Part shown: positions 2,826-17,256 of the stretch, one piece after another
Layout of the letters: the number at the start of each line of letters is the position of its first letter
Position numbering within the stretch: the first letter of the stretch is position 1
DNA from: a virus
Length of the DNA stretch: 33,735 bases
Reading direction: 5' to 3' (one strand)
IMG/VR virus record: IMGVR_UViG_3300020283_000014
Location: 1-33,735 of that record
The notes under the pieces: model-generated
Told to the model about the DNA's origin: nothing
What the model saw: the letters and a program-made list of their open reading frames with translations, nothing else
The model's database searches: none
Program-made: the position numbers and the translations under genes

Positions 2826-3255
2826 GGCAAAATCATCTTACACTATCTGAGCTTACTAAACACTTTTCGGAAAAATTTTGAAATATTTTTTTCAGCCAAA
2901 AGTAAAGGTTTTATTAATAAAAATAAGGGGGGTCGGGTCTTGAATTATCTGGAATCTTTTCTTATGTGTATTTTCTTTTCTATAGGTATTAGTAAGTCAT
3001 TAAGCAATTGGGGGGGATGGGGGCACAGATACAATCGACAAGCCACATCTGGACACTATTTCTATTTCTATCTCTATTTCTTTTACATTCATTGTCAAAA
3101 CTATTGTGACAGAACATCACGAAGTGCAGATAGCACATCGTTCTTTGTTCTACGTCACATAGTTTTGACATTCATTGTAAAAGAAATACAAATAGAATAG
3201 TGACCTGATGTGGCTTGTCGATTGCCCCGCCCCCGCACGCGAGGTAAAACTTTAC
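2826..3255. other. Divergent non-coding region, AT-rich with G/C tracts
   Basis: No convincing gene lies here; the short frames that cross it run through the inverted repeat and lack ribosome-binding sites. It separates the leftward HNH-TerL-portal operon from the rightward small-gene array. It holds a G-run near 2927-2937, the long inverted repeat at 3010-3234, and on the minus strand a GTGTAAGATGA sequence (near 2832-2842) resembling the TATAAGATA motif found upstream of plus-strand modules. That sequence may be the leftward promoter. Confidence 0.6.
3010..3234. repeat. Long imperfect inverted repeat with G/C-tract outer arms
   Basis: The arms at 3032-3049 and 3207-3224 are a perfect 18-bp inverted match. 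Pairing continues inward with few mismatches through the T/C-rich stretch, down to GTCAAAACTAT and GTGAC at about 3094-3110, matched by 3153-3170. Outside the 18-mer, the left G-runs (3010-3016 and 3019-3023) face the right C-runs (3225-3228 and 3230-3234). The apex (3111-3152) can form a further small stem (AGAAC with GTTCT). The right arm ends about 20 bp before the promoter at 3256-3284. Candidate roles are replication origin, cruciform regulatory site or bidirectional transcription barrier. Confidence 0.85.
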
Positions 3256-3284
3256 TTGCGTTTATATAAGATAGATTATATAAT
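3256..3284 (+). promoter_or_regulatory. Sigma70-like promoter for the rightward small-gene array
   Basis: TTGCGT at 3256-3261 and a consensus TATAAT at 3279-3284 are separated by exactly 17 bp. The spacer contains the TATAAGATA 9-mer (3265-3273) that recurs at 5279 and 16217. Transcription would start near 3291, giving a leader of about 27 nt before the ATG at 3318. Confidence 0.65.
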
Positions 3285-3299
3285 TTTCATATCTTTATT

Positions 3300-3313
3300 A
3301 AAACCATAGGAGG
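3300..3313 (+). promoter_or_regulatory. Conserved leader/Shine-Dalgarno AAAACCATAGGAGG, copy 1
   Basis: A 14-base leader with a full AGGAGG lies 4 bases before the ATG at 3318. The same leader recurs before 4241 and before the ATG-TAA at 4576, so it is conserved beyond the ribosome-binding core. Confidence 0.7.
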
Positions 3314-3317
3314 ACGC

Positions 3318-3506
3318 ATGAAGATAATTTTTAACTTAACTTTGGACAATGGCACTGTAATCGGTGGCGTTGAGAATGACCTTAGAGATTTGGTCATCAA
3401 TGGTGTAACTGTTGTCAGTAATGGCAGAGCAGACACTATCCAACTAGAGGAGATTGCCGAACTTAGCAATCAGTTTCAACCAAGAAGATTGGAGGACTTG
3501 TCATGA
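3318..3506 (+). CDS. Small hypothetical protein (62 aa)
   Basis: This is the first gene of the rightward array, directly behind a strong promoter and a strong AGGAGG ribosome-binding site, so it is probably expressed early and well. The protein starts with an alternating hydrophobic pattern typical of beta strands (KIIFNLTLDNGTVIGGV) and ends with a charged helix-like segment. I do not recognise a family. Its stop overlaps the start of the next gene in ATGA form (3503-3506), which implies translational coupling with the zinc-ribbon protein that follows. Confidence 0.75.
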   Translation: MKIIFNLTLDNGTVIGGVENDLRDLVINGVTVVSNGRADTIQLEEIAELSNQFQPRRLEDLS

Positions 3507-4003: not shown

Positions 4004-4031
4004 GGGCGTCTTCGGACGCCCTTCTTTTTAT
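4004..4031 (+). terminator. Rho-independent terminator closing the first small operon
   Basis: GGGCGTC (4004-4010), a UUCG tetraloop (4011-4014) and GACGCCC (4015-4021) are followed by a T-rich tract. It lies 22 bases after the stop of the 53-aa gene. Confidence 0.92.
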
Positions 4032-4054: not shown

Positions 4055-4183
4055 CTGGGAGATCCTGCAGCGGGGTCCAGCGGCCAGATACAAGCGACAA
4101 GTTATCAGATACAAGCGACAAGCTAGACGGCCGTCTAGCTTGTCGCTTGTCAAGGGTTTTTTCGCGCGAGATTGAACTTGACA
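4055..4183. repeat. Palindromic repeat element, copy B (40-bp perfect palindrome)
   Basis: The element begins with CTGGGAGATCC and carries CAGATACAAGCGACAAG twice (4085-4101 and 4106-4122). It contains a perfect 20+20-bp palindrome without spacer at 4111-4150, centred on GGCC. The tail is CAAGGGTTTTTTCGCGCGAG then ATTGAACTTGACA. Copy C at 4704-4838 shares the head, the arm sequence and the tail. On the minus strand the tail reads as codons KFNLARKNP-stop, nearly the same as the end of the nuclease next to copy C. Hairpin plus T-run could also terminate plus-strand transcription. Confidence 0.88.
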
Positions 4184-4217
4184 TGGGCTAATATTTATGG
4201 GACTATACTTATATAAT
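4178..4217 (+). promoter_or_regulatory. Possible promoter for the 4241 gene
   Basis: TTGACA at 4178-4183 is consensus. TATACT at 4204-4209 is a plausible -10 but the spacing is 20 bp, and the consensus TATAAT at 4212-4217 is farther still. The gene needs its own promoter because a terminator lies upstream, so some promoter here is likely, but its exact elements are unsure. Confidence 0.4.
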
Positions 4218-4220
4218 GTC

Positions 4221-4235
4221 AAAAACCATAGGAGG
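4221..4235 (+). promoter_or_regulatory. Conserved leader AAAACCATAGGAGG, copy 2
   Basis: The leader includes AGGAGG five bases before the ATG at 4241. It is identical over 14 bases to the copies at 3300 and 4554. Confidence 0.7.
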
Positions 4236-4240
4236 CAAAA

Positions 4241-4543
4241 ATGACAGATAAAAAAATTAAGGGAAAGACTTTCGAGTTTTGTGATGTAATAATTGGACAG
4301 AAAATTACTGTTGCAGTAATTAGTTCCGAAGATGATGAATGGGGGGATGAAGCAAGAAGAATGATTTGTGATTTTGTTCCCGAAGTCCAAGCTCTTGGAT
4401 TACCATCAGGTAATTATAAAAATGAAATCGAAGGCGACTTTGATGAAGAGATTGATAATTACAAACAATCACTCGCAGGAGGTTGTGGTTTTGAATATCT
4501 TTTAATCAAAGATAAAGATGGAAAGGTAAAAGACTTAGGATAA
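4241..4543 (+). CDS. Acidic hypothetical protein (100 aa)
   Basis: The protein has a beta-like N-terminal part (KTFEFCDVIIGQKITVAVISSEDDE) followed by an acidic helical part and a C-terminal basic/acidic strand (YLLIKDKDGKVKDLG). It is clearly acidic overall. It has the strongest type of ribosome-binding site in this window. It stands alone between a palindromic repeat upstream and a start-stop leader plus terminator downstream. I recognise no family. A short acidic early phage protein could be a host-factor or nuclease inhibitor, but no motif shows that. Confidence 0.75.
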   Translation: MTDKKIKGKTFEFCDVIIGQKITVAVISSEDDEWGDEARRMICDFVPEVQALGLPSGNYKNEIEGDFDEEIDNYKQSLAGGCGFEYLLIKDKDGKVKDLG

Positions 4544-4552
4544 ATAACAAAC

Positions 4553-4581
4553 AAAAACCATAGGAGGTATCGAGAATGTAA
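4553..4581 (+). promoter_or_regulatory. Conserved leader copy 3 driving an ATG-TAA start-stop
   Basis: The third copy of AAAACCATAGGAGG (4554-4567) is followed after 8 bases by ATG (4576-4578) and directly by TAA (4579-4581). A ribosome loaded here would initiate and terminate at once. No longer frame with a good start follows. Either a gene was lost, or this is a ribosome-stalling or sRNA-like element with the hairpin at 4621-4642 and the terminator at 4647-4681. Confidence 0.6.
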
Positions 4582-4646
4582 TTGATAATAAAAAACTTTC
4601 AGCCCAATCACACTTGGGGACATAGGACCGACCACTCCTATGGGTT

Positions 4647-4681
4647 AAAGCCGGAGCTTCGCAAGAGGTTCCGGCTTTTTC
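4647..4681 (+). terminator. Rho-independent terminator after the start-stop leader
   Basis: AAAGCCGGA (4647-4655) pairs with TCCGGCTTT (4670-4678) and runs into a T-tract. A second hairpin, CATAGGA with TCCTATG (4621-4627 and 4636-4642), lies just upstream and repeats the CATAGGA of the leader. Confidence 0.9.
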
Positions 4682-4703
4682 ATTGGCCGACACAGGTGAT
4701 AAC

Positions 4704-4838
4704 CTGGGAGATCCAGGTGACGGCCAGCTCTTACCGAACAGATACAAGCCACAAGCTGGGACACTTCGTTCTTACGCCCAGCTTGTGGCTTGTCAAGGGC
4801 TTTTTCGTGCGAGATTGAACTTCGCAAGGACGCTTGAC
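4704..4838. repeat. Palindromic repeat element, copy C
   Basis: The element has the same CTGGGAGATCC head (4704-4714) and GATACAAGC arm as copy B. A perfect 17-bp stem (4744-4760 with 4777-4793) encloses a 16-base loop. The tail CAAGGGCTTTTTCGTGCGAGATTGAACTT is shared with copy B except for two bases. On the minus strand the tail encodes the last residues and stop of the nuclease at 4793-5212, so the hairpin abuts the nuclease stop codon. Confidence 0.88.
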
Positions 4839-5212
4839 AAATGCTGGTCAAAATTTAACCAACCAGCAGGGACGAGGAACGAAGGTTCAATGCCCTTAGT
4901 CAATAGTTGGTCAAGCTGAGACGAGTGATACAGATAGAGCTGAGATTTTTTCGAAGGTGCTTGGACGAGGGACTTAACCAAGATAAAACTAGGGCTATTT
5001 AATCTAGCTTTATGAAAAGCAATTTGATGAGGCGATACTTTTACTCTTTTACTTTTGGTTACTTTTAATTCAACAGTAAAAAACATTCCGTCTTGAGTTG
5101 TGCCGAGTAAATCGGGAACGCCTTGTGTGGCGTATGACTCAAGCCGTAACCATTGATATTGCTTGAGTTTTTTTCTTATCTCTTGCCAAAAGTTTTTTTC
5201 TAGTGAAGCCAT
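4793..5212 (-). CDS. VRR-NUC/Holliday-junction-resolvase-like nuclease (PD-(D/E)XK)
   Basis: The N-terminal about 85 residues show a PD-(D/E)XK nuclease core: FWQEIRKKLK helix, GVPDLLG (Asp34), TVELK (Glu48-x-Lys50), then SPHQIAFHKAR (Gln63) and a closing strand FILVKS. This matches VRR-NUC or Hjc-like enzymes that cut branched or replicating DNA. The tail from about residue 85 to 139 has no family match and is encoded by repeat-like DNA: GTCC-rich stretches and the end of repeat copy C. It is the only minus-strand gene inside the plus-strand array, and it is divergent from the next gene at 5325. It may belong to the mobile repeat rather than to the array. No good ribosome-binding site is visible upstream. 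Confidence 0.75.
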   Translation of the reverse strand: MASLEKNFWQEIRKKLKQYQWLRLESYATQGVPDLLGTTQDGMFFTVELKVTKSKRVKVSPHQIAFHKARLNSPSFILVKSLVQAPSKKSQLYLYHSSQLDQLLTKGIEPSFLVPAGWLNFDQHLSSVLAKFNLARKSP

Positions 5213-9191: not shown

Positions 9192-9440
9192 CACATAATG
9201 TACATAATGTGGACCTAATGTGGTAGAAATTAGGTCGAAACCCTTATAGGACCTACTTTACAGCTTTACCTAACGTCATAATGTCGATTTATTGTTAAAT
9301 TTTGATAGTCAGTTCCAGAAAAAGTCAGAGAAATAGAAATTCACATTAGGTGTAATTATAAAAGTACCCTCTATAGGAAAGGCTTTTTAGCCCGTTTTTA
9401 CCTAATTTCTACCTAATTTATACGTTTTTTCCACATTATG
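9192..9440. repeat. Iteron-like array (CCTAATGTGG/CATAATGTGG)
   Basis: Short repeats crowd a gene-free stretch: CACATAATGT (9192), ACATAATGTGG (9202), ACCTAATGTGG (9213), ACCTAACGT (9268), CATAATGTCG (9277), the inverted TCACATTAGGT (9341), then ACCTAATTTCT (9400), ACCTAATTTAT (9411) and the inverted CCACATTATG (9431). An inverted ATTAGGT also lies at 9229. Iterons of this kind bind replication initiators or repressors. The last two copies enter the end of the DUF3310 gene. Nothing else is seen in 9151-9412. Confidence 0.75.
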
Positions 9441-14704: not shown

Positions 14705-16153
14705 CTAATCAAACCATTGGCGAACTTCTCCTAATACTTCATTACTAATTTTAACTTTGTTTAATAAGGTCTTTAAAATCTTTTCATCGACTGTATCTTT
14801 GGCTACTAAGTCTATATAAGTGCATTTGTCGTTCTGCCCGATACGGTGAATACGATCTTCAGACTGAATTCGAAGCTCTAAGTCATAGCTGTTTGAGTAA
14901 TATATTATAACGTTTGCTTCTGTTAACGTGATTCCTCTACCACCTGTTTGCGGATTTGAGATAAAATACTTTAACTCGTTATCTGGGTCTTGAAAGCGAG
15001 TGATTATATTTTGACGTTCATTTTGAGGGGTATCGCCGTAATATGTGGCCACCGAATTTTTTCCATATTTTTCTCGGAGCATTTCTGCTAACCTCTCTAT
15101 GTCTGTACGGAACACAGCAAATAACACAACCTTACCATCCGTCTCTGCCAGCACATCCAATACCGCAGGTAGTCTGTTGTTCTCTAAGTAAATAGTTTCG
15201 CCTGCCTCGTTACGCAAACTGCCAGCTACTACTTGTTGCAAGCGCATCAATTGAGTTAAGACGTTCATGGTCGAGAAAGTTTCGTCCTCCAGGATCATCA
15301 CTGCTTCTTGTTTCATTTGTTCGTAAGCTACCTTTTGTTCTTTGGTAAGTTCAACATAACGTTTTGTATAAGTCTTAGCTGGCAAATCTAAACATTCAGC
15401 TTTGGTGTAACGAATTGAAAAATGTTTAATTGCTTCTTGTAGCTCATCTAAGCGTTGAAATCCAACAATCTGATCGAAACCTCGAGCGCCCATTTGTTGA
15501 CGCTTCATGATTGCATAACGCGCTCTAAAGGCATAATAACTGCTATAGCCCAAAAGGTTTGGGTGTAAGAAATAACATTGTGAGTATAAATCCAAGGGTG
15601 CTTTAGTAATCGGAAACCCAGTCAAGATACGACGATAGTTTGCCAGCGGTGCCAAGGCGGTAAGATTCTTTGTGCGTTTGGCTTTTGGATTCTTAATAGT
15701 AGTTGATTCATCTACTGCAAGCATGCAGTCGTGAGTATTTAAAAACTCTTCAACAAATTTACAACCTTTAACTGTAGCAAAAGCTTCGACGTTAACTAAA
15801 AAAATGTTTAAGGTTCCAGTGCTGTCTTCGTTGACCATTTTGCGGTAGTCCCTGATCCAACGTTGCGTGTGGTTTGTCTGCCAAACTAATACTTCTCGAG
15901 CTATGTCATCTGGCAAATGACGTTCTATTTCATTAATGGACCAGTTATCCAACACTCCTTTGGGTGCGACAATAACCGCGCCAGATATTTTTTTAGCTTT
16001 AAATAAAATGCCAATGTTGTCGATTAAAATTTTAGATTTACCCAGCCCCATTTCTAAAAATAAAGCATAGTTATCTTTGTCATAACTCTGTTCTAAAGTT
16101 TTGTATTGATGATCGTAGGGTTTTGTTTTAAACTGATATGTCTCAAGCTTCAT
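14705..16153 (-). CDS. SNF2-family DEAD/DEAH-box helicase/translocase
   Basis: This is an ATP-driven dsDNA translocase of superfamily 2. It has the Q-like DHQ (14-16), Walker A EMGLGKSK (34-41), motif II as DEST (148-151), motif III LTGFPITK (177-184), motif V GGRGITL (404-410) and motif VI QSEDRIHRIGQ (430-440), which is the SNF2 form. At 482 residues it is a minimal SNF2 core, as in many phages. It has no fused nuclease or methylase. It may remodel replication or recombination intermediates or strip host proteins. It is first in the leftward operon, divergent from the replication block, with AAAGGA before its ATG. Confidence 0.93.
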   Translation of the reverse strand: MKLETYQFKTKPYDHQYKTLEQSYDKDNYALFLEMGLGKSKILIDNIGILFKAKKISGAVIVAPKGVLDNWSINEIERHLPDDIAREVLVWQTNHTQRWIRDYRKMVNEDSTGTLNIFLVNVEAFATVKGCKFVEEFLNTHDCMLAVDESTTIKNPKAKRTKNLTALAPLANYRRILTGFPITKAPLDLYSQCYFLHPNLLGYSSYYAFRARYAIMKRQQMGARGFDQIVGFQRLDELQEAIKHFSIRYTKAECLDLPAKTYTKRYVELTKEQKVAYEQMKQEAVMILEDETFSTMNVLTQLMRLQQVVAGSLRNEAGETIYLENNRLPAVLDVLAETDGKVVLFAVFRTDIERLAEMLREKYGKNSVATYYGDTPQNERQNIITRFQDPDNELKYFISNPQTGGRGITLTEANVIIYYSNSYDLELRIQSEDRIHRIGQNDKCTYIDLVAKDTVDEKILKTLLNKVKISNEVLGEVRQWFD

Positions 16154-16194
16154 AAGATTCGTCCTTTATTATTCGTTATTTTTTAAAATATTTC

Positions 16195-16225
16195 TTGCAA
16201 TGTGCATTAAGCATAGTATAAGATA
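16195..16225 (+). promoter_or_regulatory. Promoter of the replication block (TTGCAA-16-TATAAG)
   Basis: TTGCAA (16195-16200) and TATAAG (16217-16222) are 16 bp apart; TATAAGATA extends to 16225. The expected start of transcription is about 6 bases before the ATG at 16235, and no ribosome-binding site is visible, so the first message could be almost leaderless. The leftward promoter of the SNF2 gene must share this 81-bp divergent region. Confidence 0.6.
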
Positions 16226-16234
16226 CGATTAGTA

Positions 16235-16579
16235 ATGAGTAAAGCAGTAGAAGTAAAAATATTTCAAACCGATTTTGGTTACAGCCTAAGTTTAGATGGT
16301 GCGGTTCCACGCGACAGACTTGGTTACGAAATAAGTTTTACTTCTTTGAACGAAACTTTGTGTTATTTATTCTACGATTTTGGTCGAACTTCAGCTTTTA
16401 AAATAGTTGCTTGCGAAGGCGACGATACTTTAGAAAAGATTATTGATTTTGAAATGGATCACGAGTTAGAGCATGAGGTAGTTAAAGATTGGTCCTGTAT
16501 ACCCACTCCAGATGAGATAAAAGGTAAGGCTAAAAAAACCGACAATGTTTTAATTTTTAAACCTAAAGATGAAAAGTGA
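16235..16579 (+). CDS. Hypothetical protein (114 aa), first gene of the replication block
   Basis: This mixed alpha/beta protein opens with VEVKIFQTDFGYSLSLDGAVPRDRLGYEISF and contains a short acidic HELEHE segment (His/Glu-rich, about residues 75-85) that might bind metal. No family is recognised. It follows a promoter at very short distance without a ribosome-binding site, so it may be read from a leaderless message. The stop overlaps a GTG start of the next small gene (GTGA). Confidence 0.7.
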   Translation: MSKAVEVKIFQTDFGYSLSLDGAVPRDRLGYEISFTSLNETLCYLFYDFGRTSAFKIVACEGDDTLEKIIDFEMDHELEHEVVKDWSCIPTPDEIKGKAKKTDNVLIFKPKDEK

Positions 16580-16686
16580 ACATAAAAGAACACCAAGCTA
16601 TGATGAGGAGAATAAAAGCGGAGTTAGATGCTCAAGAAAAACAAAAGAAATTAAAGAAAACTAAAAAGAAAAAAGAGGAGAAGTAA
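16576..16686 (+). CDS. Very basic small peptide (36 aa), GTG start
   Basis: The GTG at 16576 overlaps the previous stop (GTGA), with AAAGATGAAAA upstream; an ATG at 16600 would give a shorter form. The peptide is a single Lys-rich helix (MRRIKAELDAQEKQKKLKKTKKKKEEK). Its stop abuts the next start, and its last codons GAGGAGAAG form that gene's ribosome-binding site. It could be a real nucleic-acid-binding peptide, or a translated leader that couples the genes on both sides. Confidence 0.5.
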   Translation: MNIKEHQAMMRRIKAELDAQEKQKKLKKTKKKKEEK

Positions 16687-17256
16687 ATGTCAATTGAAAT
16701 ATTATTTGAACAGGAAACTAAAAGAAAAGTAGAGTCCCTAAAAGAAACTGATTTAAAAAGTTTATCCGAACTGTGTGACAAATTATTGCGAGTACAAGGC
16801 ACGATAGGAAATGCTGAGGACCGCTTGCAAAGGTTGAAAGAAACCGAAAAGAATTTATCCGAAGAAGTTATACCCCTGCGTTTACAAGAGCTAGGCATAC
16901 AAGATATTCGTCTAAGTGATGGCTCACGTATTTCAGCAGAACCTTATTATGGCGCTCGTATCTCTAAAGAAAAATTAGATGCGGCTCACGATTGGCTGAG
17001 AGAGAACGGTCACGGCGATCTTATTAAGAACGTTGTGAGCGTGCAGTTCGGCCGTGGTGAAGATGAGCGCGCTAAAGAAGTGATAAACATTTTAATTAAG
17101 GAAGGGTTATTGCCTGACCAGAAAGAAAGTGTTCATCCTAGTTCACTCAAGGCGTTCGTACGCGAACAAGTTGAGTCGAACAATCAGGTGTTTGACCAAG
17201 CAGCCAGAGAACTTTTCTCTGTCTACGAGGGCAAGCGAACTAAAATTGTCAAATAA
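16687..17256 (+). CDS. Conserved phage replication-block protein (189 aa)
   Basis: The N-terminal half is a long charged helix (about 1-60, likely coiled coil: LSELCDKLLRVQGTIGNAEDRLQRLKETEKNLSEEVIP). It is followed by a conserved beta/alpha part: LRLQELGIQDIRLSDGSRI, WLRENGHGDLIKNVVSVQFGRGED and VHPSSLKAFVREQVE. I recall the GRGED and VHPxxLKAFVRE blocks from a widespread uncharacterised phage family found near single-stranded DNA-binding and replication genes. Direct function is unknown. Here it precedes the 259-aa protein and primase, fitting a role in replication. Confidence 0.75.
   Translation: MSIEILFEQETKRKVESLKETDLKSLSELCDKLLRVQGTIGNAEDRLQRLKETEKNLSEEVIPLRLQELGIQDIRLSDGSRISAEPYYGARISKEKLDAAHDWLRENGHGDLIKNVVSVQFGRGEDERAKEVINILIKEGLLPDQKESVHPSSLKAFVREQVESNNQVFDQAARELFSVYEGKRTKIVK

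Follow-up and report, generated by a model that had tools for sequence, protein, structure and literature searches.

Short palindromes repeated within a genome are known from several systems. REP/BIME and MITE-type palindromes are short, intergenic and present in multiple copies, and operator-type palindromes at phage sigma70 promoters are inverted repeats that lie at a fixed upstream distance from several promoters. The c4 antisense RNA of phages P1 and P7 is complementary to a ribosome-binding region and carries an anti-SD loop (PMC12197685). VRR-NUC/Hjc resolvases have a PD-(D/E)XK core with a GxPDLL...ELK motif, and such enzymes cleave four-way junctions (PMC4103454). The locus described here resembles each of these in part.

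The window, by which we mean the whole 33.7-kb virus record (G+C 38%), is related to HTVC023P-type podoviruses, with polA 51-54% and terL 57-62% identical to those of HTVC023P, HTVC027P, 023Pt_psg01 and DSL-LC04. It shares the order terL-nuclease-terS with HTVC023P-type pelagiphages; both here and in the HTVC023P-type isolates, the terL-terS gap holds the repeat region. HTVC027P differs in having direct heptad arrays where the window has hairpins. Neither palindromes nor hairpins came up in a term search of the main text of PMC9599517, a blastn search of GenBank phages with the locus returned short chance matches only, and an Rfam scan gave no match above threshold, the weak PhrS, MIR6288 and snoZ30 matches being read as chance. 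The idea of a tRNA or att site was dropped, as the window is devoid of tRNAs. Elsewhere in the window, a 25-nt inverted repeat with arms 152 nt apart (9217-9418) lies between terS and its neighbor, the DUF3310 gene.

Anatomy and conservation of the palindromic units

The features of the locus are listed by position in the window.

3026-3224, plus strand: unit A, a near-perfect hairpin of about 200 nt with outer arm CAGATACAATCGACAAGCC
3256-3284, plus strand: predicted promoter A (TTGCGT-17-TATAAT), 31 nt past hairpin A
3300-3313, plus strand: shared leader/RBS AAAACCATAGGAGG, serving gene 3318-3506 and the rest of the A operon
4004-4030, plus strand: canonical intrinsic terminator that closes the A operon, ahead of B
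4055-4084, plus strand: head of unit B (GAGATCC and CTGG/CCAG-rich)
4085-4102, plus strand: first of the two arm copies in B (CAGATACAAGCGACAAGT), with the second 21 bp further on
4106-4150, plus strand: arm and hairpin of B (20-bp perfect stem at 4111-4150)
4151-4177, plus strand: tail of B with the TCGCGCGAGAT box; the "ghost" nuclease codons are its minus strand
4178-4206, plus strand: predicted promoter B (TTGACA-17-TGG GACTAT, extended -10)
4222-4235, plus strand: shared leader/RBS of cassette B
4241-4543, plus strand: exchangeable cassette gene, 100 aa, no family match
4554-4581, plus strand: second leader/RBS, then a start-stop ATG TAA
4635-4646, plus strand: anti-leader CTCCTATGGGTT, complementary to the shared RBS leaders
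4647-4681, plus strand: canonical intrinsic terminator before C
4704-4738, plus strand: head of unit C
4739-4793, plus strand: arm and hairpin of C (17-bp stem, 16-nt loop), then no promoter
4793-4822, minus strand: tail box of C, forming the final 9 codons and the stop codon of the nuclease gene (KFNLARKSP-stop)
4793-5212, minus strand: VRR-NUC/Hjc-like PD-(D/E)XK nuclease, 139 aa

The preliminary description held that B and C share head, arm and tail, with a third relative at 3026-3042, and sequence comparison bears out both statements. An exact 11-bp head (CTGGGAGATCC) occurs at 4055 in B and at 4704 in C, the arm CAGATACAAGCNACAAG is found at 4085 and 4106 (both in B, the two copies 21 bp apart) and at 4739 in C, and the tails form a 55-nt direct repeat (4132-4186 and 4775-4829; 85% identical). 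This likeness is more than chance. The third relative proves to be the left arm (3026-3044) of a 199-nt hairpin spanning 3026-3224, unit A. The B stem is perfect and loop-free over 20 bp (4111-4150), and the C stem is perfect over 17 bp with a 16-nt loop (4744-4793); under a first-order Markov model of the window, 0.27 stems of at least 12 bp and none of at least 15 bp are expected by chance. The arms are built from 7-nt units, with autocorrelations of 0.59, 0.56 and 0.80 at 7, 14 and 21. GATCC is present in most heads of the window's units.

Pattern and protein searches recover the units, with their order kept, in about ten lineages (window/L007, L005, L006, L010, L099/L102, L090, L105, L107/L015, L088/L089 and L108), with the C-unit hairpin lost in L088/L089/L108. 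Downstream of A and B, the order is TCGCGCGARAT, a TTGAC(A/G/C)-17-(TG)GATAAT-like pair, the shared leader with its RBS, and a start codon. A promoter-like pair stands 25-33 nt past the hairpin in each of the 16 A/B units; the -35 begins at 25-28 nt in all B units, L089_A and L108_A, and at 29-33 nt in the other A units. The promoter score reaches at least 10.5 in 11 of 16, compared with 0.7% of random windows, and an RBS and start follow in 14 of 16. None of the eight C units is followed by an RBS and start, and their promoter scores are near background in every case. The A and B units thus have the makings of phage promoter units, with -35 and -10 elements at 17 bp and then an RBS and start. 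The window's promoter B has a weak -10 (GACTAT), the extended TGG aside; the corresponding promoter in L090, L107 and L108 reads TTGACA/G-17-GATAAT.

From these comparisons we infer that A, B and C are probably copies of a promoter-linked, cis-regulatory palindrome unit, C being a promoter-less copy captured by the nuclease gene. One unit would run from a head through one or two heptad arms (CAGATACAAGCNACAAG) and a perfect palindrome to the TCGCGCGARAT box, followed by a sigma70-type promoter and the leader (AAACCATAGGAGG). A and B would be complete and would drive small exchangeable accessory genes, and C would be a promoter-less duplicate lying where it meets the convergent nuclease gene, whose frame would now cross the box of C and end at the hairpin base. 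The palindrome and heptads would act as DNA, forming a putative operator for a regulator that jointly controls the promoters. The units are most likely operator palindromes of an accessory-gene bay and not a homing or palindromic mobile unit. They differ from known operator-type palindromes in that the stem can reach 20 bp (and about 80 bp in A), the tip sequence is free, the structure has 7-nt units and a GATCC head is attached.

The stems also show how the units change. Unit A is kept with altered stem sequence in L006, L090, L089 and L108. Variation is almost absent from the outermost 12 bp of the stem, and the inner part varies freely yet remains paired. Across 15 distinct arms, 98.3% of cells pair and both sides have changed at 7 of 16 pairs; double-change cells number 31 against 7.0 in shuffles, and the covariation score is 0.381 against 0.083, with no slid register coming close. 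This shows that either a pairing constraint or self-correction of the palindrome acts on the stem, two processes that the data do not separate, and the stem's symmetry could result from template-switch correction and not from selection. Concerted evolution of B and C was rejected as a general rule, within-genome similarity of the two being generally no greater than that between lineages. Only single cases point that way: L099, where C has the TTTA-linked double arm of B, and L005, where the B tip resembles the C tip.

Template switching might also maintain palindromes and slippage generate heptads as neutral, self-perpetuating repeats of no function, an alternative that we regard as unlikely. 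L005 and L010 fit it, as they are 96% identical over their main aligned part and differ in the B head and tip while their stems remain perfect, and other phages carry other repeat types after the nuclease (GCTN tetrads in psg01). The constant promoter spacing, the retention of the outer 12 bp, the conserved TCGCGCGARAT box and the conserved positions across lineages count against neutral repeats.

The placement of the region in the terL-terS gap, common to the window and HTVC023P-type isolates, and the resemblance of heptads to iterons would suit origin or packaging-site iterons bound by replication or packaging proteins. We assign this a low probability, given that three units are spread over 1.8 kb and that A and B are each tied to the promoter of their own operon.

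We give still less credence to the units being transcription terminators or insulators. B and C do fall in gaps between transcription units, and the window has a T-rich stretch after the hairpin (CAAGGGTTTTTT), but a 6-nt gap precedes this T-run, which is absent from L090, L105, L107 and L089, and canonical terminators are already present 60-90 nt upstream of B and C. Moreover, A is placed between divergent genes, HNH on the minus strand and the cassettes on the plus strand, so transcripts of the neighboring genes do not enter it. The Endonuclease VII/HNH-like gene (2343-2825) adjoins unit A; its place in L105 (944-1390) is taken by a different-looking 148-aa ORF.

The nuclease gene and the tail box

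The nuclease contains invariant residues E25, G31, P33, D34, E48 and K50 (GxPDLL...ELK). Its PHROG matches are resolvases, and its best sequence matches among structures are the VRR-NUC chains 4qbo and 4qbn. The AlphaFold model (pLDDT 82) retrieves 1ob8 (E 9e-4) and 4qbn (E 7e-3) with Foldseek, the closest folds being Hjc, RecU-type and the VRR_NUC protein 4qbn; Pfam Hjc scores 17.2 bits, below its cut-off of 21.1. On the strength of the motif, the PHROG and 4qbo/4qbn matches and the predicted fold, we identify the protein as a VRR-NUC/Hjc-like junction nuclease. In contrast to other VRR-NUC/Hjc resolvases, its variable C-terminus appears to have been overwritten by repeat DNA. A cruciform extruded by the palindrome could in principle be a substrate for such an enzyme.

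The minus strand of the tail reads KFNLARKSP-stop in C and KFNLARKNP-stop in B, as first reported. At B the frame is open for only 6 codons upstream, to a stop at 4195-4197, and there is therefore no gene; a tblastn search of the window with the nuclease has no match at B past those 9 residues. The box TCGCGCGARAT is clear in B and in the A units of L089/L108, and the tail box also lies behind A units (L089, L108 and L090), far from the nuclease. Related nucleases end before the box in L014, L016 and L024-L026, read 9 aa into it and end at the hairpin base in the window, L009 and L011, and read into their own version of it in L013. Because the nuclease of relatives stops short of the box and that of the window reads through, the gene seems to have annexed element DNA. 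Likewise, since promoter, leader and RBS follow A and B but not C, the tail of B is best read as the promoter-proximal part of the unit, and B, the gene-less copy, is by this comparison not a relic of a lost nuclease.

These results overturn the proposal that a nuclease-plus-palindrome unit inserted twice and lost one nuclease: in every related contig B is followed by a promoter-like pair and never by nuclease remnants, and the tail box behind unit A is far from any nuclease. The companion suggestion, that the gene's 3' end travels with the palindrome, holds only in reverse, the last 9 codons being element DNA that the nuclease reads into. The analogy with homing units likewise finds no support. 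The best profiles and folds are those of Holliday-junction resolvases and not of a homing family, palindromes A and B lie away from the nuclease, and the nuclease occurs without palindromes in L017-L023. A mobile or homing unit is therefore very improbable, even though 8 of the 9 minus-strand residues encoded by the shared tail are identical and related repeats overlap the nuclease 3' end in 60 of 60 distant loci (many of them near-duplicates), for in addition to the missing remnant at B of the window and the promoters there in relatives, the tail is also part of A, the fold is that of a junction resolvase, and neither a target-site duplication nor a palindrome-free insertion site was found. 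The lost-nuclease account thus gives way to one in which a gene annexes regulatory DNA as its 3' end.

Exchangeable cassettes and a candidate antisense RNA

The cassette between B and C holds a different gene in L005, and other genes in L010 and L090. In L006 both palindromes are kept with no gene between them, an empty cassette in which promoter B and its leader run straight into the pre-terminator RNA, with the AAACCATAGGAGG repeat as the boundary. A start-stop ATG TAA/TAG similar to that of the window (4554-4581) is found at the same place in L006, L090, L105 and L107. A and B occur without the nuclease in every genome. It appears that the genes are the exchangeable parts and the palindromes stay. 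Nuclease and palindrome were not seen to move together, and close relatives yielded no palindrome-free B or C site. In the sampled phages, unit copies are confined to the conserved A, B and C sites. The units thereby differ from REP/BIME and MITE elements, having only three copies at conserved, mostly promoter-linked sites with no target-site duplications seen; no transposase was recognized next to them, though this was not a systematic transposase search. Dispersed copies with a transposase or target duplication, the marks of REP/RAYT or MITE families, were not observed.

In L088, L089 and L108, the last unit has promoter-like sequence but no gene. There it could specify an antisense RNA of ~80 nt (L089:6296-6378 and L108:2213-2294; in L088 on the reverse strand, 4265-4343 of the reversed contig), with its own promoter-like and terminator-like sequences and CUCC in a loop. 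In the cassette mRNAs of its own clade, this RNA is complementary to SD, start codon and leader. The predicted duplexes have energies of -21 to -30 kcal/mol and z scores of -2.8 to -7.4, and are weaker with the other clade's RNA. Leader and anti-leader differ together between clades. The candidate has the features of a c4-like antisense RNA, and by analogy phage c4 RNA is its nearest precedent (PMC12197685); unlike c4 of P1/P7, one RNA here faces a leader common to several accessory operons. In the window's clade, each genome has one CTCCTATGGGTT before terminator 2, matching two or three AAACCATAGGAGG leaders. The complementarity in this clade is only a 9-12 bp anti-SD match, statistically weak except in L107, with z scores of -0.6 to -0.8 in the window and -4.0 in L107.

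These elements can be joined into a broader but tentative scheme, possible rather than probable, in which the locus would be an accessory-gene bay, an antisense RNA from the last unit would silence all leader-bearing genes, and the (NNCAAGC)n heptads would be the operator code of this regulon throughout HTVC023P-type phages. If true, small genes would each be added behind a palindromic promoter unit and common leader, and any newly acquired gene would fall under one RNA switch. The comparisons point to a promoter-linked heptad/palindrome system, apparently undescribed, and to a leader-matching antisense RNA in this abundant marine phage group, and isolates such as HTVC027P make the heptad/palindrome system testable.

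Heptad arrays in distant phages and bacteria

All 60 distant loci (L028-L087), with nucleases about 42-49% identical and many near-duplicates among them, have GCTTGNN heptads in tandem at the 3' end of the nuclease gene. Their density at the 3' end is 46 pairs per kb, with none upstream of the gene. HTVC027P has the same array at its nuclease 3' end; its heptad arrays there and those abutting TTGACA -35 boxes fall within 16036-17256 (L243). The nuclease ORF of this isolate (about 15761-16110) is absent from the GenBank annotation, and an opposite-strand ORF, gp32, is annotated over the heptads in that record. The array is partly coding; the motif DELVACGL yields GAGCTTGTAGCTTGTGGCTTG, and for this reason the array may have begun in the gene. 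Judged by position and a short motif, we take the distant arrays to be probable homologs of the hairpins in the window's clade.

Of the 101 unique (NNCAAGC)n arrays found elsewhere than at the nuclease, 47 sit directly against a TTGACA-like -35, compared with a background of 8%. Such arrays often fill the spacer too, and -10-like hexamers and an RBS follow. This association is an independent tie between the heptad motif and putative promoters.

Bacterial matches (L121-L240, in Pseudomonas, Bacteroidota and Alloalcanivorax) were considered as possible host copies and set aside, as they are independent (NNCAAGC)n palindromes with different flanks. These palindromes, for which no established name turned up, are abundant: matches to the tandem triplet number 363 in Flavitalea, 141 in Hymenobacter and 37 in P. 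lurida, and the reversed pattern gives 0. A literature search by heptad sequence gave matches in unrelated fields and no paper on such a repeat. Hairpins with CAAGCGACAAG in unrelated phage contigs were also discarded; the L116 example resembles a simple terminator followed by a T-run, and that of L119 is the same case on the other strand. A different repeat type, GCTC/GCTT tetrads (GCTN), directly follows the nuclease in 023Pt_psg01 (L244, 15270-15385). Finally, a second palindrome family with another 7-nt unit (CTGATCCCAGATCC...GGATCAGGGATCAG) is present at L028:3710-4110 and L029:1935-2370, with several copies inside 0.5 kb.
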